Part shown: positions 4,890 through 23,346 of the stretch, piece by piece | How the letters are laid out: every line of letters begins with the position of its first letter | How positions within the stretch are numbered: the first letter of the stretch is position 1 | Assembly: GCF_022662575.1 (NCBI RefSeq) | Contig: NZ_JALBFU010000001.1 | Span: forward strand, 568,381-632,380 | Length of the DNA stretch: 64,000 nt | Direction of reading: 5' to 3' | DNA from: Luteimonas aquatica | GTDB lineage: Bacteria > Pseudomonadota > Gammaproteobacteria > Xanthomonadales > Xanthomonadaceae | Program-made: the position numbers and the translations under genes | Notes under the pieces: model-generated | Seen by the model: the letters and a program-made list of their open reading frames with translations, nothing else | Told to the model about the DNA's origin: nothing | Databases searched by the model: none

Positions 4890-5342
4890 TCAGTACAGGC
4901 GGTTCTGCCACCGCTCGGGCGGCAGCCAGGTGATCTGTTGCGCGTCGGCGGCGCCGACGCTCCCGTGGCCGACGGCGGCAAGCACGTCGGCCTGCATCTG
5001 CGACCAGCTTTCGGCATGCGTGCCGATGCGGGCGCCGATGCGGTTGTTGTGCGCATCCATGGCGCGGCTGTCGTTGCCCAGCCCGTCGCGCTCCATCACC
5101 GCGGTCACCCAGGCGACCCAGCGCGGCGAGCCGGAGTAGGCCACGGTGGCGCTGGCCAGCGCGTGCCGGTAGGCATCGGCCGGGCCGTTGCGCCCGCCCG
5201 GCAGGTCGGCGGCGAACCAGTGCGCGTAGACGCTGGCGAGGACGAAGCACGGATAGGCGGCCAGCACGAGCAGCGCCGCCAGCGGCCATTTCCACCGTTT
5301 CCGCAGTGGCCGGCGGCCGGTCTTCTGGCGGCCGATCTTCAA
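4890..5342 (-). CDS. Small DUF6973-like membrane-anchored protein between carA and carB
   Basis: This 150-residue protein has a basic N-terminus and one membrane segment at about residues 18-37 ([20 protein letters not shown]). A soluble domain follows with [13 protein letters not shown] and later [13 protein letters not shown]. The paired DAxRHA and MDxHNNxxG motifs resemble DUF6973, a family without a settled function. I chose the TTG at 5340-5342 because it overlaps the carA stop as TTGA and has GGAG eight bases upstream; no ATG in this frame would keep the membrane segment. The setting between carA and carB suggests translational coupling. A role in carbamoyl phosphate synthesis is not implied by the sequence. 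The domain is probably exported or periplasmic. Confidence 0.75.
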
Positions 5343-6529
5343 GCCGCGCGCTCCATCAGCGCGACGAAGCGGTCGAACAGCGGCGCGACGTCGTGCGGGC
5401 CGGGCGAGGCTTCCGGGTGTCCCTGGAAACTGAACGCCGGCGCGTCGGTCAGCGCGATGCCCTGGTTGCTGCCGTCGAACAGCGAGCGATGGGTGACGCG
5501 CACGTTGTCCGGCAGCGTCGCCTCGTCGACCGCGAAGCCGTGGTTCTGCGAGGTGATCATCACGCGCTTGCGGCCTTCGTCGAAGATGCCCAGGTCGATC
5601 ACCGGATGGTTGGCGCCGTGGTGGCCGAACTTCATCTTCAGCGTGCACGCGCCCGAGGCCAGGCCGAGCAGCTGGTGGCCGAGGCAGATGCCGAAGGTCG
5701 GGATTTTCTGCTCGATGAAAACGCGGATCGCGGCGATCGCGTAGTCGCAAGGCTCCGGATCGCCTGGGCCGTTGGACAGGAATATGCCATCAGGTTTCAG
5801 CGCCAGCACGTCCGCGGCCGGCGTCTGCGCCGGCACCACGGTCACGTCGCAGCCGCGCTCGGCCAGCATGCGCAGGATGTTGCGCTTCACGCCGAAGTCG
5901 TAGGCCACGACACGGTATGCGAGTCCCTCGCCAGAACCCGCACCTGCCTGTGCGGACTTTGCAATGCGCTTCGCCCCCAGGCTGGCGAATGTGTCCGTGT
6001 CGAGGTCGAGCTGGCCTTCGCGCCAGGGATAAGCCTCGCGCGTGCAGACTTCCTTGGCCAGGTCCATGCCCTTCAGGCCGGGGAACTTGCGCGCGGCCTC
6101 GATGGCCCTGTCCGCATCGATGGCGCCGGCCATCAGCGCGCCGTTCTGCGCGCCGCGGTCGCGCAGCAGGCGCGTGAGCTTGCGGGTGTCGATATCGGCG
6201 ATGGCGACCACGCCGCGCTGGCGCAGCCACTCCGGCAATGCGACCTGGCTGCGCCAGTTGCTGGGACGGCGCGGCACGTCGCGCACGATCAGGCCCGAGG
6301 CCCAGACCTGGCCGGCCTCGTCGTCCTGGTCGGTACAGCCGGTGTTGCCGATGTGCGGATAGGTCAGCGTGACGAGCTGACGGGCATAGGACGGATCGGT
6401 GAGGATTTCCTGGTAGCCGGTCATGGCGGTGTTGAACACCACCTCGCCGACCGAAAGGCCGGGCGCGCCTACGGAAACGCCCTCGAAGACGGTGCCGTCT
6501 TCAAGCGCGAGGATTGCTGTATCGGTCAC
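5339..6529 (-). CDS. carA: Carbamoyl-phosphate synthase small subunit (glutamine amidotransferase)
   Basis: The 396-residue protein has the N-terminal CPSase small-chain domain ([18 protein letters not shown]) and a class I glutamine amidotransferase domain. The catalytic Cys is in [12 protein letters not shown] near residue 280, and the His-Glu pair is in [11 protein letters not shown] near residue 370. It hydrolyses glutamine and passes ammonia to CarB. The start codon is GTG (6527-6529). It is the first gene of the carA–carB–greA operon and is divergent from the Lgt-like gene at 6696. Length agrees with the family. Confidence 0.97.
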
Positions 6530-6695: not shown

Positions 6696-7433
6696 ATGCC
6701 GCCGAGCCCGTACTGGATCCACACACTGTTCGAGGTCGCCGCCTACGCCATCGGCTTCCGCCTTTACCTGCGCGAGCGCCAGCGCCAGGCGCTGCCGGCC
6801 CTGGCCTCGCGCGAGCACGCGATCGCGGTGGCCGCCGGCGCGATCATCGGCGCCGCGCTCGGCAGCAAGCTCGCCTACTGGCTGTACGACCCGCTTTACG
6901 CCTTCGCCGGCTTCCCCGACCCGCGCCGCCTCCTGGAGGGGAAATCGATCATCGGCGCGCTGCTCGGCGGCCTGGCGGGCGTGGAGATCGCCAAGCGCCT
7001 GGAGGGCGTGCGCGGCTCCACCGGCGATGCCTTCGTGCTGCCGCTGATCGCGGGCATGTGCATCGGGCGCATCGGCTGCTTCCTGGCCGGCCTGAACGAC
7101 CATACCTACGGCAACCCCACCGCCCTGCCCTGGGGCGTGGATTTCGGCGACGGCGTGCCCCGGCACCCGACGCAGCTGTACGAGATCGCCTTCCTGCTGG
7201 CGCTGGGCGCCTGGATCGCGCGGCACGGCGGGCGCTTCGCGCGCGAGGGCGACCGGTTCCGCGCCTTCATGGTCGCCTACCTCGGCTACCGCCTGCTGAT
7301 CGAATGGATCCGCCCCATCCCGCTGCACTACCTCGGCCTGTTCTCCGGCCTGCAGCTGTTGTGCCTGGCGGGCCTGCTCTACTATCTGCGCGACATCCCC
7401 AGGATCGCAGGGACGCTGGCATGGCGAAGGTAA
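6696..7433 (+). CDS. Divergent Lgt-fold membrane protein (prolipoprotein diacylglyceryl transferase family)
   Basis: This 245-residue polytopic membrane protein has the Lgt family blocks GRIGCFLAGLNDHTYG and PRHPTQLYE, with about six or seven hydrophobic segments. It departs from canonical Lgt. The E. coli histidine in the WHGGLLG loop is missing (here GKSIIGALLGGLAG), and the GRIGNFINGE motif reads GRIGCFLAGL. It may therefore not be the housekeeping lipoprotein enzyme. I chose ATG 6696; a TACACT -10-like hexamer ends 7 bases before it, suggesting a leaderless or near-leaderless transcript. A GTG at 6663 is possible but lies upstream of that hexamer. Its 3' end overlaps the next gene by 13 bp, implying co-expression with the radical SAM enzyme. 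Confidence 0.85.
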   Translation: MPPSPYWIHTLFEVAAYAIGFRLYLRERQRQALPALASREHAIAVAAGAIIGAALGSKLAYWLYDPLYAFAGFPDPRRLLEGKSIIGALLGGLAGVEIAKRLEGVRGSTGDAFVLPLIAGMCIGRIGCFLAGLNDHTYGNPTALPWGVDFGDGVPRHPTQLYEIAFLLALGAWIARHGGRFAREGDRFRAFMVAYLGYRLLIEWIRPIPLHYLGLFSGLQLLCLAGLLYYLRDIPRIAGTLAWRR

Positions 7434-8851
7434 GGCCGTACCTGTTCTATGACAGCGCCGTCTCGGTCTGCTCGACCTGCCTGCGCCGCGTGGAGGCCAG
7501 CATCCTGATCAAGGACGAACGCGTCTACCTGGAGAAGTGGTGCCCGCAGCACGGACGCGAGCGCGTGCTGGTCGCCGACGACGCCGCCTACTACCGCCTG
7601 TGCCGCGAGCGCTTCGTCAAGCCGCCGGAGCTGCCGCAGCGCTTCAACACCGAGCGCCGCTGGGGCTGCCCCTACGACTGCGGCCTGTGCCCGGAACACA
7701 TGCAGCACAGCTGCCTCACCCTGATCGAGGTGACCGATCAGTGCAACCTGCGCTGCCCGATCTGCTATGCCGACTCCGGTCCGCACCGCCCCGGCTTCCG
7801 CGACCTGGCCACCATCGAGCGCATGCTCGACGCGGTGGTCGCCAACGAGGGCGAGCCGGACGTGGTGCAGATTTCCGGCGGCGAGCCGACCCTGCACCCG
7901 GAGTTCTTCGCCATCCTCGATGCCGCCAAGGCGCGCCCGATCCGCCACCTGATGGTCAACACCAACGGGCTGCGCATCGCCAGGGAGCCTGAGTTCGTCG
8001 CGCGCCTGGCCGACTACATGCCCGGCTTCGAGCTGTACCTGCAGTTCGACTCGCTGCGCGACGAAGTCCACCAGGAACTGCGGGGCGCGCGCCTGCGCGA
8101 GATCCGGCTGCGCGCGCTGGAGGCGCTCAACCGCCACGACATTTCCACCACGCTGGTGGTGACGGTCAAGAAGGGCCTCAACGACGGCGAGCTCGGGGAG
8201 ATCGTCGAATTCGCGCGCCGCCAGCCCTGCGTGCGCGGCGTGACCTTCCAGCCGATCCAGCATGCCGGCCGCACCGAGGGCTACGACGCCGCGCGCGACC
8301 GCCTCACCCTGACCGAGGTGCGCCGCGGCATCCTCGAACAGAGCGGCCTGTTCCGCCCGGAAGACCTGATCCCGGTGCCTTGCCATCCCGACAGCCTGGC
8401 GATGGCCTATGCGCTCAAGCTCGGCGACGACATCGTGCCGCTGACCGGCCTGGTGCCGCCGGAGGTGCTGATCGAGGGCGGCCGCAACAGCATCGTGCTG
8501 GAGAAGGACGAGGGCCTGCGCGAGGCGCTGTTCAAGCTGTTCGCGACCAACCACTCGCCGCAATCGCAGGCCTGCTCGCTGGCCGACCTGCTGTGCTGCC
8601 TGCCGCAGGTGCAGGCGCCGGCCGGCCTTGGCTACCGCAACGTGTTCCGGGTGCTGATCATGGCCTTCATCGACGCCGAGGGCTTCGACCTGCGCTCGGT
8701 GAAGAAGAGCTGCGTGCACATCGCCCAGCCCGACGGCAGCATCGTGCCCTTCGATACGTTCAACCTGTTCTACCGCGACGGCCTGCGGCAGCGGCTGGAG
8801 AAGCTGCGCGCCCAGGTCGAGGCCGGCAACGCCGTGGAGGTGATGGCATGA
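7421..8851 (+). CDS. Radical SAM protein resembling archaeal tetraether synthase (Tes/MJ0619 family)
   Basis: The 476-residue protein has several cysteine clusters. Near the N-terminus is CSTC followed later by CPQHG, a rubredoxin-like arrangement. Next is CPYDCGLCPEH, and then the radical SAM motif CNLRCPIC (CxxxCxxC) near residue 108, followed by the GGEP motif (QISGGEPTLHPEFF). More cysteines lie in the C-terminal third (CSLADLLCCLPQ, KKSC). From memory this arrangement is that of the MJ0619 family, whose archaeal members include Tes, which joins lipid tails through sp3 carbons. The overlap with a lipid-binding Lgt-fold gene upstream and a small membrane protein gene downstream (ATGA overlap) suggests a lipid-modifying role. 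The substrate in this bacterium is unknown. Confidence 0.85.
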   Translation: MAKVRPYLFYDSAVSVCSTCLRRVEASILIKDERVYLEKWCPQHGRERVLVADDAAYYRLCRERFVKPPELPQRFNTERRWGCPYDCGLCPEHMQHSCLTLIEVTDQCNLRCPICYADSGPHRPGFRDLATIERMLDAVVANEGEPDVVQISGGEPTLHPEFFAILDAAKARPIRHLMVNTNGLRIAREPEFVARLADYMPGFELYLQFDSLRDEVHQELRGARLREIRLRALEALNRHDISTTLVVTVKKGLNDGELGEIVEFARRQPCVRGVTFQPIQHAGRTEGYDAARDRLTLTEVRRGILEQSGLFRPEDLIPVPCHPDSLAMAYALKLGDDIVPLTGLVPPEVLIEGGRNSIVLEKDEGLREALFKLFATNHSPQSQACSLADLLCCLPQVQAPAGLGYRNVFRVLIMAFIDAEGFDLRSVKKSCVHIAQPDGSIVPFDTFNLFYRDGLRQRLEKLRAQVEAGNAVEVMA

Positions 8852-9234
8852 GCGAGGACCAGACCCCGTACACCCCGCCGCAATCGCCGATCGGCGGACC
8901 CCAGGCGCGGCCGCCGGCCGATGCCCGCGGCTCGCTGGGCATCGGCATCGCCCTGTTCTTCGCCTGCCTGGTCGGCGGCGCCGCGGTCGCCTTCCTGCTG
9001 CGCATCGTGCTGATGGCCGCGCTGCTGCAATGGGATTCGACGGGCCCGGGCCCGACCATCGTGCTCGTTGTGATCCCGCTGCTGCTGCCCTGGCTGGCCG
9101 TGGCGTGGCTGGCCGTTCACCTCGTGCGCCGCGGACAGACGCGCAGCGCGCTCGGCCTGCTGGTCGGCTTCGGCATCCTCGCCGCCATCGTGCTGCTGCT
9201 GGTGGCGGCCTGCTTCAGCCTGTTCGCCCTCTGA
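8848..9234 (+). CDS. Small membrane protein, third gene of the radical SAM/Lgt-like cassette
   Basis: The 128-residue protein has a proline-rich hydrophilic N-terminus (about 30 residues). Three hydrophobic segments follow, at about residues 32-56, 62-88 and 98-126, the second and third separated by a basic loop (VRRGQTRS). I recognise no family. Its ATG overlaps the stop of the radical SAM gene (ATGA), so it is very likely translated from the same mRNA. It ends about 40 bp from the convergent dapB. Confidence 0.75.
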   Translation: MSEDQTPYTPPQSPIGGPQARPPADARGSLGIGIALFFACLVGGAAVAFLLRIVLMAALLQWDSTGPGPTIVLVVIPLLLPWLAVAWLAVHLVRRGQTRSALGLLVGFGILAAIVLLLVAACFSLFAL

Positions 9235-9276: not shown

Positions 9277-10002
9277 TCAGAGCAGGTCGCGCAGGCGATA
9301 TTCGGCCGCCGGGCGCCCGGCCAGGCGGACCGCCGCGTGCAGCGCGCCGCGGGCGAAGATGTCGCGGTTGCCGGCGCGGTGGATCAGCTCGATCCGTTCG
9401 CCGGCGCCGGTGAACTGCACCATGTGCTCGCCGACGATGTCGCCGGCGCGCAGGCTGGCGTAATGCGGCCGCGCATCGCCGCGCTGCGCCGCGGCGCCGA
9501 GCGCGAGCGCGGTGCCGGACGGGGCATCCTTCTTCTGCGTGTGATGCGCCTCGACGATGTCGCAGTCCCAGCCGCGCAGCGTCGAGGCGGCACGCTCGAC
9601 CAGGTCCTCGAGCACGGCCACGCCCAGGCTGAAGTTCGCCGCCCACAGCACCGGCACGCGCGCGGCGGCGGCCTGCAGATCGGCGCGCTGCGCCTCGGAC
9701 AGGCCGGTGGTGCCGGACACGAAGGCGGCGCCGCGCTGCACGCACAGCGCCAGCACCGCGCCGAAACCGTCGGGCAGGCTGAAATCGATGGCCGCGTCGA
9801 ACTCCGGCGCGCCGCCCAGTTCGCTGGCGGCGAAGTGCGGCACGCCCTCGACCACGCGCTGCGCCGGCGAGCGCGCCGAGACCGCCGCGACGACGCGGCA
9901 GTCCTGGCGCGCGCCGGCAAGCCGCAGCAGGGCTTGCCCCATGCGCCCGGAGGCGCCATGGATCAGGATGCGGACGGGCAAAAGGCGGACGGGTTCGCTC
10001 AT
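9277..10002 (-). CDS. dapB: 4-hydroxy-tetrahydrodipicolinate reductase
   Basis: The 241-residue protein has the NAD(P)-binding loop IHGASGRMGQ and the catalytic/substrate motif EAHHTQKKDAPSGTAL. The FSLGVAVLEDLVERAA helix is also present. It reduces the dehydrated product of DapA to tetrahydrodipicolinate in the lysine/meso-diaminopimelate pathway. The length is slightly below the E. coli enzyme (273). In xanthomonads dapB usually lies near carAB, as here, although the plus-strand radical SAM cassette sits between them in this window. The ATG at 10000-10002 is the only good start. Confidence 0.96.
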   Translation of the reverse strand: MSEPVRLLPVRILIHGASGRMGQALLRLAGARQDCRVVAAVSARSPAQRVVEGVPHFAASELGGAPEFDAAIDFSLPDGFGAVLALCVQRGAAFVSGTTGLSEAQRADLQAAAARVPVLWAANFSLGVAVLEDLVERAASTLRGWDCDIVEAHHTQKKDAPSGTALALGAAAQRGDARPHYASLRAGDIVGEHMVQFTGAGERIELIHRAGNRDIFARGALHAAVRLAGRPAAEYRLRDLL

Positions 10003-10124
10003 GCATGCAGGCTAGCGACGCGCGCACGCGCCGGCAAGCAGGGCCGTCGCTCCCCGGCCGCGCCGGGCGAGGTTATGATCGGGCGCAACGCAACAGGCCG
10101 ACTCCGCCCTCGCCGTCGCTTGCC

Positions 10125-10805
10125 ATGCTGCTCGATCCCGCCCGCCTCGATCGTCCCGACGTGCTGGTCGCCTCGGCGCCCTTCGCGTTCCTGGTCGCGC
10201 CCAGGCAGTTGCCCGACGCGCAGCGCGATGCGCTGGCCGCCGATTTTCCGCGCTATGGCTGCGCCGGCTTCTTTCCTTATCGGGCGCAGGATTGCGGAGA
10301 TTCGGTGCGGGCGCTGGTGGCCGAGATGATCTCGCCGGCCGTCGCCGACGCCATCGGCGCGCGCCTGGGGCTGGAACGGCTGTCCGAGCGGCCTGCCATC
10401 GTCACCCTGAGCGATGCCGTCCACCTGCGCCACGGCACGATCCATACCGACAGCAAGTCGAAGATCGCCACCGCCCTGCTCTATCTCAACCTCGACTGGC
10501 CGCAGGCCAGCGAGGGCTGCCTGCGCCTGCTCCATCGCGGCGACGACATCCAGGCGCTGGCGGCGCCGGAAATCCGTCCCGAGTACGGCACCCTGGTCGC
10601 GTTCCGGCGCGCCGACAACTCCTGGCACGGACACCTGCCCTTCGAAGGCGAACGCCGCGTGGTGCAGGTCGCCTGGCTGACCAGCGCCGGGGAGCTCTCG
10701 CGCAAGCAGCGCCGCGGGCGGTTCTCGCGCTGGGTGAAGAAGATCGCCGGCGCGCTCGACGCCCGCTGGGGCGCGAGGCGCGGGATCAATGCGCGGCATG
10801 ACTAA
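10125..10805 (+). CDS. 2-oxoglutarate/Fe(II)-dependent oxygenase family protein
   Basis: The 226-residue protein shows the double-stranded beta-helix iron motif. The first pair is in GTIHTDSKSK (HxD), and the distal His and the Arg that would bind 2-oxoglutarate are in SWHGHLPFEGERRVVQVAW. The C-terminus is basic (RKQRRGRFSRWVKK), which could contact RNA, DNA or membrane. The substrate is unknown. A TATGAT hexamer at 10074-10079 may be its -10 element, but no clear -35 is seen. It is a single-gene unit, divergent from dapB. Confidence 0.8.
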   Translation: MLLDPARLDRPDVLVASAPFAFLVAPRQLPDAQRDALAADFPRYGCAGFFPYRAQDCGDSVRALVAEMISPAVADAIGARLGLERLSERPAIVTLSDAVHLRHGTIHTDSKSKIATALLYLNLDWPQASEGCLRLLHRGDDIQALAAPEIRPEYGTLVAFRRADNSWHGHLPFEGERRVVQVAWLTSAGELSRKQRRGRFSRWVKKIAGALDARWGARRGINARHD

Positions 10806-22993: not shown

Positions 22994-23346
22994 GGGGGTG
23001 CACTGGCTTCGACGGGGGTCGCGAAGTTGCCTGGCGCATGCCGAGGGGGCAGCTTTCCTCGTAAATCCAGCGGCAAAACTCATAGTTGCCAACGACGACA
23101 ACTACGCTCTGGCCGCTTAAGGCCTAAGCCCCGAACCCACTTGTGCCCGTGCTCGTGGATGTAGGGTCATCATCACGGGACCGCCGGGGCGGTTGTCTGC
23201 CAACCCCGGTTAAATCCAGCAGACTGGTCCGCCGATGCGCTTTGCGCGCCGTGCTGTCGGTGGACGAGATCTAACGGAGCGCTAAGCATGTAGTGCCGGG
23301 GATGGAGTGCCTTCGGACGCGGGTTCGATTCCCGCCACCTCCACCA
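22994..23346 (+). ncRNA. ssrA: tmRNA (SsrA)
   Basis: The RNA is about 353 nt. The 5' end GGGGGTGCACTGGCTTCGAC pairs with the 3' CACCTCC before an encoded CCA, making the alanyl acceptor stem, and GGGTTCGATTCCCGCC near the 3' end is the T-arm. The tag frame at 23088-23120 reads GCC AAC GAC GAC AAC TAC GCT CTG GCC GCT TAA, encoding ANDDNYALAA. tmRNA with SmpB rescues stalled ribosomes and marks the nascent chain for ClpXP/ClpAP. The one-piece form is intact. The 3' end, a common integration site, shows no integrase or att duplication. Confidence 0.97.

Follow-up and report, generated by a model that had tools for sequence, protein, structure and literature searches.

A three-gene cassette pairing a divergent Lgt-like enzyme with a Tes-like radical SAM enzyme: a possible protein-lipidation system with its own substrates

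A stretch of 64,000 nucleotides from Luteimonas aquatica (contig NZ_JALBFU010000001.1, positions 568,381 to 632,380; hereafter the window, G+C content 69-73%) contains a cassette of three overlapping genes. Gene 1 (6696..7433, + strand, ATG start) encodes a divergent Lgt-like membrane enzyme of 245 amino acids (aa). Gene 2 (7421..8851, + strand, ATG at 7421) encodes a Tes-like radical S-adenosylmethionine (SAM) enzyme of 476 aa, here called rSAM, and gene 3 (8848..9234, + strand, ATG start) a small membrane protein of 128 aa, proposed here as a dedicated substrate. Genes 1 and 2 are strongly associated and linked as a system. Tentatively, we favor the view that the cassette is a self-contained protein-lipidation system that brings its own substrates, with rSAM chemistry on the lipid or on the lipidated protein. 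This suggests an as yet undescribed route by which membrane proteins receive a lipid anchor that is also chemically altered. An earlier note on this DNA, made from the sequence alone, had reported three overlapping genes and the rSAM motifs CPYDCGLC and CNLRCPIC; both motifs were found and the coordinates confirmed, with overlaps of 13 bp between genes 1 and 2 and 4 bp between genes 2 and 3.

The Lgt-like and rSAM genes travel together

Homologues of the rSAM were surveyed and 80 of the 143 loci found were kept; counts of 81 include the locus of the window itself. Larger counts given below are based on 88 loci, leaving out L094 and L095, which are distant homologues and come from the same genome. 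In all 80 loci the best rSAM segment covers nearly the whole protein at 56-90% identity, the best match in a named locus being that of Pseudoxanthomonas winnipegensis (90%). An Lgt-like match was present in the same locus in 77 of the 81. When neighboring open reading frames (ORFs) were clustered, the only clusters to exceed 17 of 81 loci were those of the rSAM (81) and the Lgt-like protein (64); a cluster of small proteins, c10, was found in 10 loci from at least three phyla. The loci stem from Pseudomonadota, Acidobacteriota, Bacillota, Planctomycetota, Omnitrophota, Bacteroidota, Myxococcota, Actinomycetota and archaea, several phyla being represented by metagenome-assembled genomes (MAGs) only, and carriers include Dyella, Rhodanobacter and Massilia.

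Co-occurrence was analyzed in 274 gammaproteobacterial genomes, drawn evenly, and 119 genomes of Acidobacteriota, with bit-score limits that were chosen after the gaps had been seen. The divergent Lgt was found in 15 of 16 genomes with a close rSAM, compared to 1 of 377 without. Among the Gammaproteobacteria, eight genomes carry the rSAM (518-1097 bits), and one more, G239, has distant homologues only. The Lgt-like profile matched seven genomes at 134-334 bits, with the next match, at 94 bits, lying in the range of ordinary Lgt; all seven are among the eight with rSAM, and in each the two genes lie on the same contig within ~400 bp. Among the Acidobacteriota, nine genomes have the Lgt-like protein and eight have the rSAM at ≥553 bits, all eight being among the nine. 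In seven of these eight the pair is located on one contig, within 2.6 kb; four genomes have weaker rSAM matches only (274-413 bits). Conservation of the Lgt partner, which the earlier note had put forward as a check, was supported, with the pair extending across phyla and co-occurrence near-perfect in both samples.

The distribution of the pair is patchy, the rSAM being absent from both same-family relatives sampled. Plasmid carriage is rare (2 of 72,556 plasmid records at E 1e-60, with an Lgt-like match in one of the two); a complete Persicobacter (Bacteroidota) plasmid carries the pair. At least two PF01790 matches were found in 27 of 28 cassette-bearing bacterial genomes, the exception being the MAG G283 with one.

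Three archaeal MAGs of 1.4-1.5 Mb also contain the cassette (L065, L068 and L079, from genomes G275, G274 and G276). Two are labelled Thalassarchaeaceae/Thalassarchaeum, which we take to be Marine Group II, and the third Euryarchaeota archaeon. Each has a single PF01790 protein, that of the cassette, and LspA was found in 0 of 3 compared to 7 of 7 bacterial genomes tested alongside; since all archaeal carriers are MAGs, absences and binning are to be taken with care. In the literature, cited here by PMC number, Lgt is described as absent from archaea (PMC13251419). The three MAGs hold an Lgt-family protein despite this reported absence.

Small proteins with a helix-end cysteine accompany the pair

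The product of gene 3 consists of a proline-rich N-terminal tail and three hydrophobic segments (judged by eye), and its C-terminal end reads LLLVAACFSLFAL. Its cysteine, the proposed site of lipid attachment, is residue 122 in a protein of 128 and is followed by 6 more (codon at 9211..9213, + strand, position counted from the sequence), and there is no N-terminal lipobox for signal peptidase II. The VAAC sequence itself fits the lipobox pattern. No Pfam family matched gene 3 above its cut-off, and a paralogue elsewhere in the genome was not found (best other match, E 0.097). The earlier description of a three-span membrane protein agrees with the three hydrophobic stretches; it missed the probable role of the protein, which is that of a substrate of the cassette.

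Small membrane proteins in which a hydrophobic helix is followed by a cysteine recur beside the pair, beyond plain similarity. These companions are encoded downstream of the rSAM gene, between the two genes or upstream of the Lgt-like gene. Their cysteine contexts read LLLVAACFG in Xanthomonadales, FLLNAACFG in Bacilli, GVGLCGLD and GLGSCFGF in Acidobacteria, AGFGLCGA in Massilia and LLFGFCMLM in archaea. The archaeal companions form a single family, and the one tested has EF-hands; none of the other small companions among the 10 sampled matched a Pfam family above cut-off.

Companions were counted by a fixed rule with controls, the rule having been chosen after inspection of a first list of companions. 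At least one cysteine-helix ORF was present on the coding strand in 71 of 88 loci; for the opposite strand the figure was 12 of 88, and among flank windows 10 of 137. The cysteine was present in 90 of 115 small hydrophobic ORFs of the operon region and in 13 of 74 flank ORFs (Fisher 7e-17), a p-value that serves only as a guide because relatedness of the loci inflates the companion numbers. In 79 of the 90 the last charge before the cysteine is K/R, at a median distance of 20 residues, and the cysteine is followed by F in 33 and by G in 32. The context of the cysteine resembles a lipoprotein signal placed inside the protein.

All 20 loci that are Xanthomonadales-type by similarity (L001-L020, of which L018 is labelled Methylobacillus) have a cysteine ORF at the rSAM end, and 19 read AAC; since these ORFs were picked by the pattern [AS][AI]C near the rSAM stop, 20 of 20 describes presence per locus in a selected alignment. 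Mean pairwise identity over these loci is 41% for the small protein, 64% for the Lgt-like protein and 83% for the rSAM. The companion of L002 is reduced to the tail and one helix (63 aa), and one acidobacterial locus has 4 companions. A C-terminus of an aromatic residue plus histidine (FH, YH or WH) was seen in 11 of the 20 small proteins (L003-L008, L010, L015, L017, L018 and L020) and also in the acidobacterial L028 and L030.

Other genes beside the pair have lipoprotein-like starts. The gene between the pair has a lipobox-like N-terminus (GGTGC, STGC or AGGC) in several Massilia-type loci, and a further family, with GACF, is found in four acidobacterial loci. Proteins of ~210-240 aa with an ALWACAP lipoprotein-like start are encoded in MAG loci, on the other strand in L021, L023 and L046 (cluster c25) and beside the pair at L081:5285-5986. 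Judged by eye, these would all be lipoproteins.

The Lgt-like enzyme retains the phospholipid-side residues

Gene 1 matches Pfam LGT with 84.7 bits (8.3e-24; cut-off 24.9) and falls below the Lgt equivalog cut-offs (TIGR00544, 32.4 vs 118.9; NF000778, 51.8 vs 334). It is the second PF01790 protein of the genome, the ordinary Lgt being encoded on another contig. A sequence profile gave a match to PDB 5azb at 6e-14. We compared the residues of the 81 cassette proteins with those of a small set of 9 ordinary Lgt, using E. coli Lgt numbering derived from the profile alignment to 5azb and from motifs quoted in PMC13251419. All 81 retain R143, R239 and Y235 in equivalent positions (R125, R199 and Y195 here). 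R246 is represented by K/R in 81 and E243 by D/E in 80, and the equivalent of Y26 is H in 76 (H9 here). According to passages of the same paper, E. coli Lgt requires Y26, H103, R143, N146, G154 and R239, H103 and N146 vary among distant Lgt, and the combination Y26H/N146C occurs in a second mycobacterial Lgt (PMC13251419). By its residues, the phospholipid side of the Lgt-like enzyme looks functional and the acceptor side looks altered.

The rSAM has a Tes fold and its own C-terminal cysteines

Gene 2 matches Pfam Radical_SAM (4.5e-28) and the HMPTM (MJ0619-type) N-terminal zinc ribbon (1.7e-16), and its closest solved relative is MJ0619/Tes (PDB 7tol, 7.2e-61). An AlphaFold model (mean pLDDT 83, residues 370-400 poorly predicted) was aligned by Foldseek to 7tol over the full length (TM 0.76, E 4.6e-35), the best non-Tes match being at 1e-9; after Tes, the best fold matches are the peptide maturases SkfB and SuiB. 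The kinship to Tes/MJ0619 proposed in the earlier note is supported by this full-length match.

The N-terminal ligands of Tes are given as C9, C12, C33 and H36, and C73, C77, C80 and a His, in the part of PMC9433317 available. In the rSAM, the rubredoxin-type site is C17/C20/C41/H44 (cysteines in 88 of 88 relatives, H44 in 85), the N-terminal cluster is C83/C87/C90/H93 and the SAM cluster C108/C112/C115, both kept in all 88. Further conserved cysteines are C98, C321 and C431 (88 of 88) and C392 and C393 (87 of 88), the latter two falling within the poorly predicted stretch of the model. The Tes C-terminal cysteines would, judged from their conservation, be cluster ligands, and the cassette rSAM may use a new ligand set for its C-terminal cluster. 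The equivalent of Tes Met439 is M in 54 of 88 rSAMs and that of Tyr459 is I/F/M/L; Met439 is described as a labile ligand whose alanine mutant remains active (PMC9433317, in part).

Among NCBIfam models the best match of the rSAM is TrsS (NF045646), almost full length at 325.7 bits against a cut-off of 490, which six relatives (280.7-335.5 bits) also failed to reach. The Tes model NF045702 gave 256.1 bits (cut-off 450), and four further cassette-type rSAMs scored 268-295.5 bits, all <450. SPASM maturase models were far below their cut-offs among the 25 of 65 matched families listed. A midpoint-rooted tree of 73 of 114 extracted proteins, with some long branches and odd compositions flagged, placed 12 Tes in one group (100/100) and 56 cassette-type rows in another (100/100), with 5 distant rows outside both. 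The 12 archaeal Tes are what a motif filter yielded from 30 fetched loci and belong to a single archaeal phylum. The cassette clade of 56 rows includes L090, for which no Lgt-like match was found within the stretch fetched, and 9 rows that the TrsS model retrieved from the phylum of G304, four of them duplicating cassette loci.

Two identities could be ruled out: that of a Tes, by the cut-off, the separate clade and the displaced C-terminal cysteines, and that of a TrsS, by cut-offs, tree and residues. On the same grounds as the former, the Tes/MJ0619-like label of the earlier note is not supported in so far as it would make the enzyme a Tes. The idea of a selenoprotein is based on the TrsS name only; an in-frame TGA reported in one relative, L091, did not appear in the protein extracted from it. 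In three genomes from the phylum of G304, two or three Tes/TrsS-like rSAM genes are clustered on one contig (G445:C309, G479:C586 and G485:C568).

A two-step model and what weighs against it

The chemistry is what we infer from these genes, the residues and fold, the association and the companions. In a first step, the Lgt-like enzyme would bind phosphatidylglycerol through its two conserved arginines and transfer a diacylglyceryl group, or one much like it, to the single cysteine at the helix end of a companion. The acceptors would be small membrane proteins or lipoproteins of the same operon, here Cys122 of the 8848-9234 product. Because the companion cysteine lies in a C-terminal helix, release by signal peptidase II is not expected. 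In a second step, the rSAM could abstract a hydrogen from an acyl chain of the attached lipid, or of its phospholipid precursor, and form a new C-C or C-S bond, resulting in an unusual, possibly cross-linked or membrane-spanning protein anchor. The case for the first step is made by homology to Lgt, by the arginines that are retained and by the cysteine partners encoded within the cassette; that for the second is made by the Tes fold alone. A more daring version, in which the dedicated Lgt lipidates an uncleaved transmembrane cysteine and the rSAM welds the lipid tail to another lipid or to protein, giving a membrane-spanning anchor in bacteria and Marine Group II archaea, seems rather unlikely to us.

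A number of observations weigh against the lipidation model. Related loci are not independent samples. The Gammaproteobacteria genome G178 (72% complete) has the rSAM and no Lgt-like match at 134 bits, the acidobacterial G570 carries the Lgt-like protein without rSAM, and L157, L160 and L163 of the rSAM clade show no Lgt-like match within the short stretch fetched. In all 81 cassette proteins the equivalent of E. coli Lgt H103 is V/I/L (I86 here) and that of N146 is C (C128 here); with both residues absent, the enzyme may use another acceptor than Lgt or catalyze another reaction. Foldseek of the Lgt-like model matched no solved structure at E 0.001, and we gave preference to the profile match, on which the kinship to 5azb is based. 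In the rSAM, the C-terminal cysteines of Tes (11-12 of 12 archaeal Tes) are out of place, being S/T/A at 430 and D/E at 445, and site 325 is C in just 28 of 88. Tes-type C-C coupling is hence not assured, and the bond formed may differ from the Tes bond. Companion cysteine contexts vary, many having no standard lipobox, and 17 of 88 loci have no companion under the strict rule. In 6 of these 17 (L029, L031, L037, L042, L053 and L076) a companion missed by the thresholds was seen by eye, L051 stops at the rSAM end, and L021 and L046 have the ALWACAP gene on the other strand instead.

Alternative explanations

The main rival to lipidation is chemistry on the polypeptide. The rSAM could modify the small protein itself, for example by a thioether or C-C crosslink at the cysteine or close to it, with the Lgt-like protein lipidating or docking the product, in a membrane-bound pathway resembling those of ribosomally synthesized and post-translationally modified peptides. 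Small, fast-evolving and sometimes tandem companions with a conserved cysteine do look like precursors; SkfB and SuiB are peptide maturases, and the C-terminal cysteines of the rSAM differ from those of Tes. However, in E-value the match to Tes, which spans the full length, surpasses that to any peptide maturase by ~25 orders of magnitude, and inspection by eye revealed no pattern of leader or core in the companions. Moreover, the conserved cysteine sits in a membrane helix, at the end that the positive-inside rule would place outside the cytoplasm. We regard polypeptide chemistry as possible and clearly less probable than lipidation.

According to the earlier note, the cassette might cross-link or otherwise modify membrane lipid tails or a lipid-bearing substrate. 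In such a model the rSAM would couple or modify the tails of bulk membrane phospholipids, giving membrane-spanning lipids, with the Lgt-like protein as its phosphatidylglycerol-handling partner. The Tes fold and the retained phosphatidylglycerol-binding arginines are in line with this idea. However, it leaves the cysteine-helix companions unexplained, the rSAM lacks the Tes C-terminal cysteines and fails the Tes cut-off, and Dyella, Rhodanobacter and Massilia are ordinary aerobic soil bacteria. Bacterial Tes homologues have been proposed for the synthesis of branched glycerol dialkyl glycerol tetraethers (brGDGTs) (PMC8941075 and PMC10087280, parts available), yet a separate bacterial enzyme, Mss, is described as serving membrane-spanning lipids (PMC13274423, in part). 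Since a dedicated Lgt paralogue and cysteine-bearing small membrane proteins point to lipid-modified proteins, we consider cross-linking of bulk lipid unlikely; a lipid-linked role, the other part of the claim, remains probable.

A thiol or selenium redox role as in the TrsS group, with the membrane cysteine as a redox center, is improbable. It would fit TrsS as the top NCBIfam match, and a plasmid of Mycolicibacterium vanbaalenii (L194:2299-7339) encodes a 40% identical homologue next to another rSAM gene, CcdA, a disulfide oxidoreductase and a DVU_1556-type methyltransferase. However, the scores of the rSAM and its six relatives (281-336 bits) are far below 490, and a redox center would not usually consist of a lone, unpaired cysteine within a hydrophobic helix. 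CcdA, DsbD or a DVU_1556-type methyltransferase was not noticed among the part of the neighbor clusters read by eye; one of these, c28 (4 loci), resembles an rRNA methyltransferase. Coincidence, an ordinary second Lgt beside an unrelated rSAM, could be imagined given ~1,300 genomes reported with two lgt copies (PMC13251419, in part), but is contradicted by the near-perfect co-occurrence in two samples and by close or overlapping genes across phyla, and merits hardly any weight.

Genomic surroundings

The cassette on the + strand is flanked by two genes on the opposite strand, both named by eye: a carA-like gene upstream (5339..6529, - strand) and a dapB-like gene downstream (9277..10002, - strand). 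Xanthomonadales-type loci repeatedly show this same arrangement. Past the dapB-like gene, the region 10005-10805 of the window appears by eye to encode a member of cluster c8, which has the look of a 2-oxoglutarate oxygenase and is located near the cassette in Rhodanobacteraceae loci. A tmRNA gene lies at 22994-23346 (tag ANDDNYALAA).

Comparison with known systems

Among the matches listed in the open literature (titles, abstracts and some passages), no earlier description of a cassette of Lgt and rSAM was found, in agreement with the earlier note, which knew of no described bacterial system of such make-up. If our reading is true, lipoprotein biogenesis and radical-SAM lipid chemistry, which are separate fields, are joined in one system with built-in candidate substrates. 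The function of bacterial Tes homologues is described as unproven (PMC8941075, in part), and some of those regarded as potential brGDGT makers may be enzymes with other roles.

Akin to Tes/GDGT-MAS (MJ0619, 7tol, NF045702), the cassette rSAM has the full-length fold, the rubredoxin site, the [Fe4S4]N ligands including the histidine and a CX3CX2C SAM cluster. Unlike Tes, it sits with an Lgt partner and cysteine-helix proteins, and conserves C321, C392, C393 and C431 in place of the Tes C-terminal cysteines. TrsS (NF045646), which appears in a table of PMC13188914 (available in part), is the best-scoring curated family for the rSAM; the TrsS-like plasmid homologue, however, is accompanied by the DVU_1556-type methyltransferase and CcdA, the cassette enzyme by Lgt.

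With Lgt (5azb, TIGR00544), the Lgt-like enzyme shares the Pfam LGT match, the equivalents of R143, R239 and Y235 and the RHP.QLY motif, and it differs in the equivalents of H103, N146 and Y26 (V/I/L, C and mostly H) and in scoring below the equivalog cut-offs. Plasmid-borne lgt genes beside their own lipoproteins provide a precedent for an extra Lgt near candidate substrates; there, the substrates are conjugation lipoproteins, and the passages available mention no rSAM (PMC13251419). Mss is, like the enzyme proposed here, a bacterial enzyme associated with lipid tails, which it couples, and is reported to model like Tes (PMC13274423 and PMC11868695, in part). It is described, however, together with the ether-forming enzymes Ger/PlsA, for mostly anaerobic conditions and not with Lgt, and is set apart from the cassette by this description.

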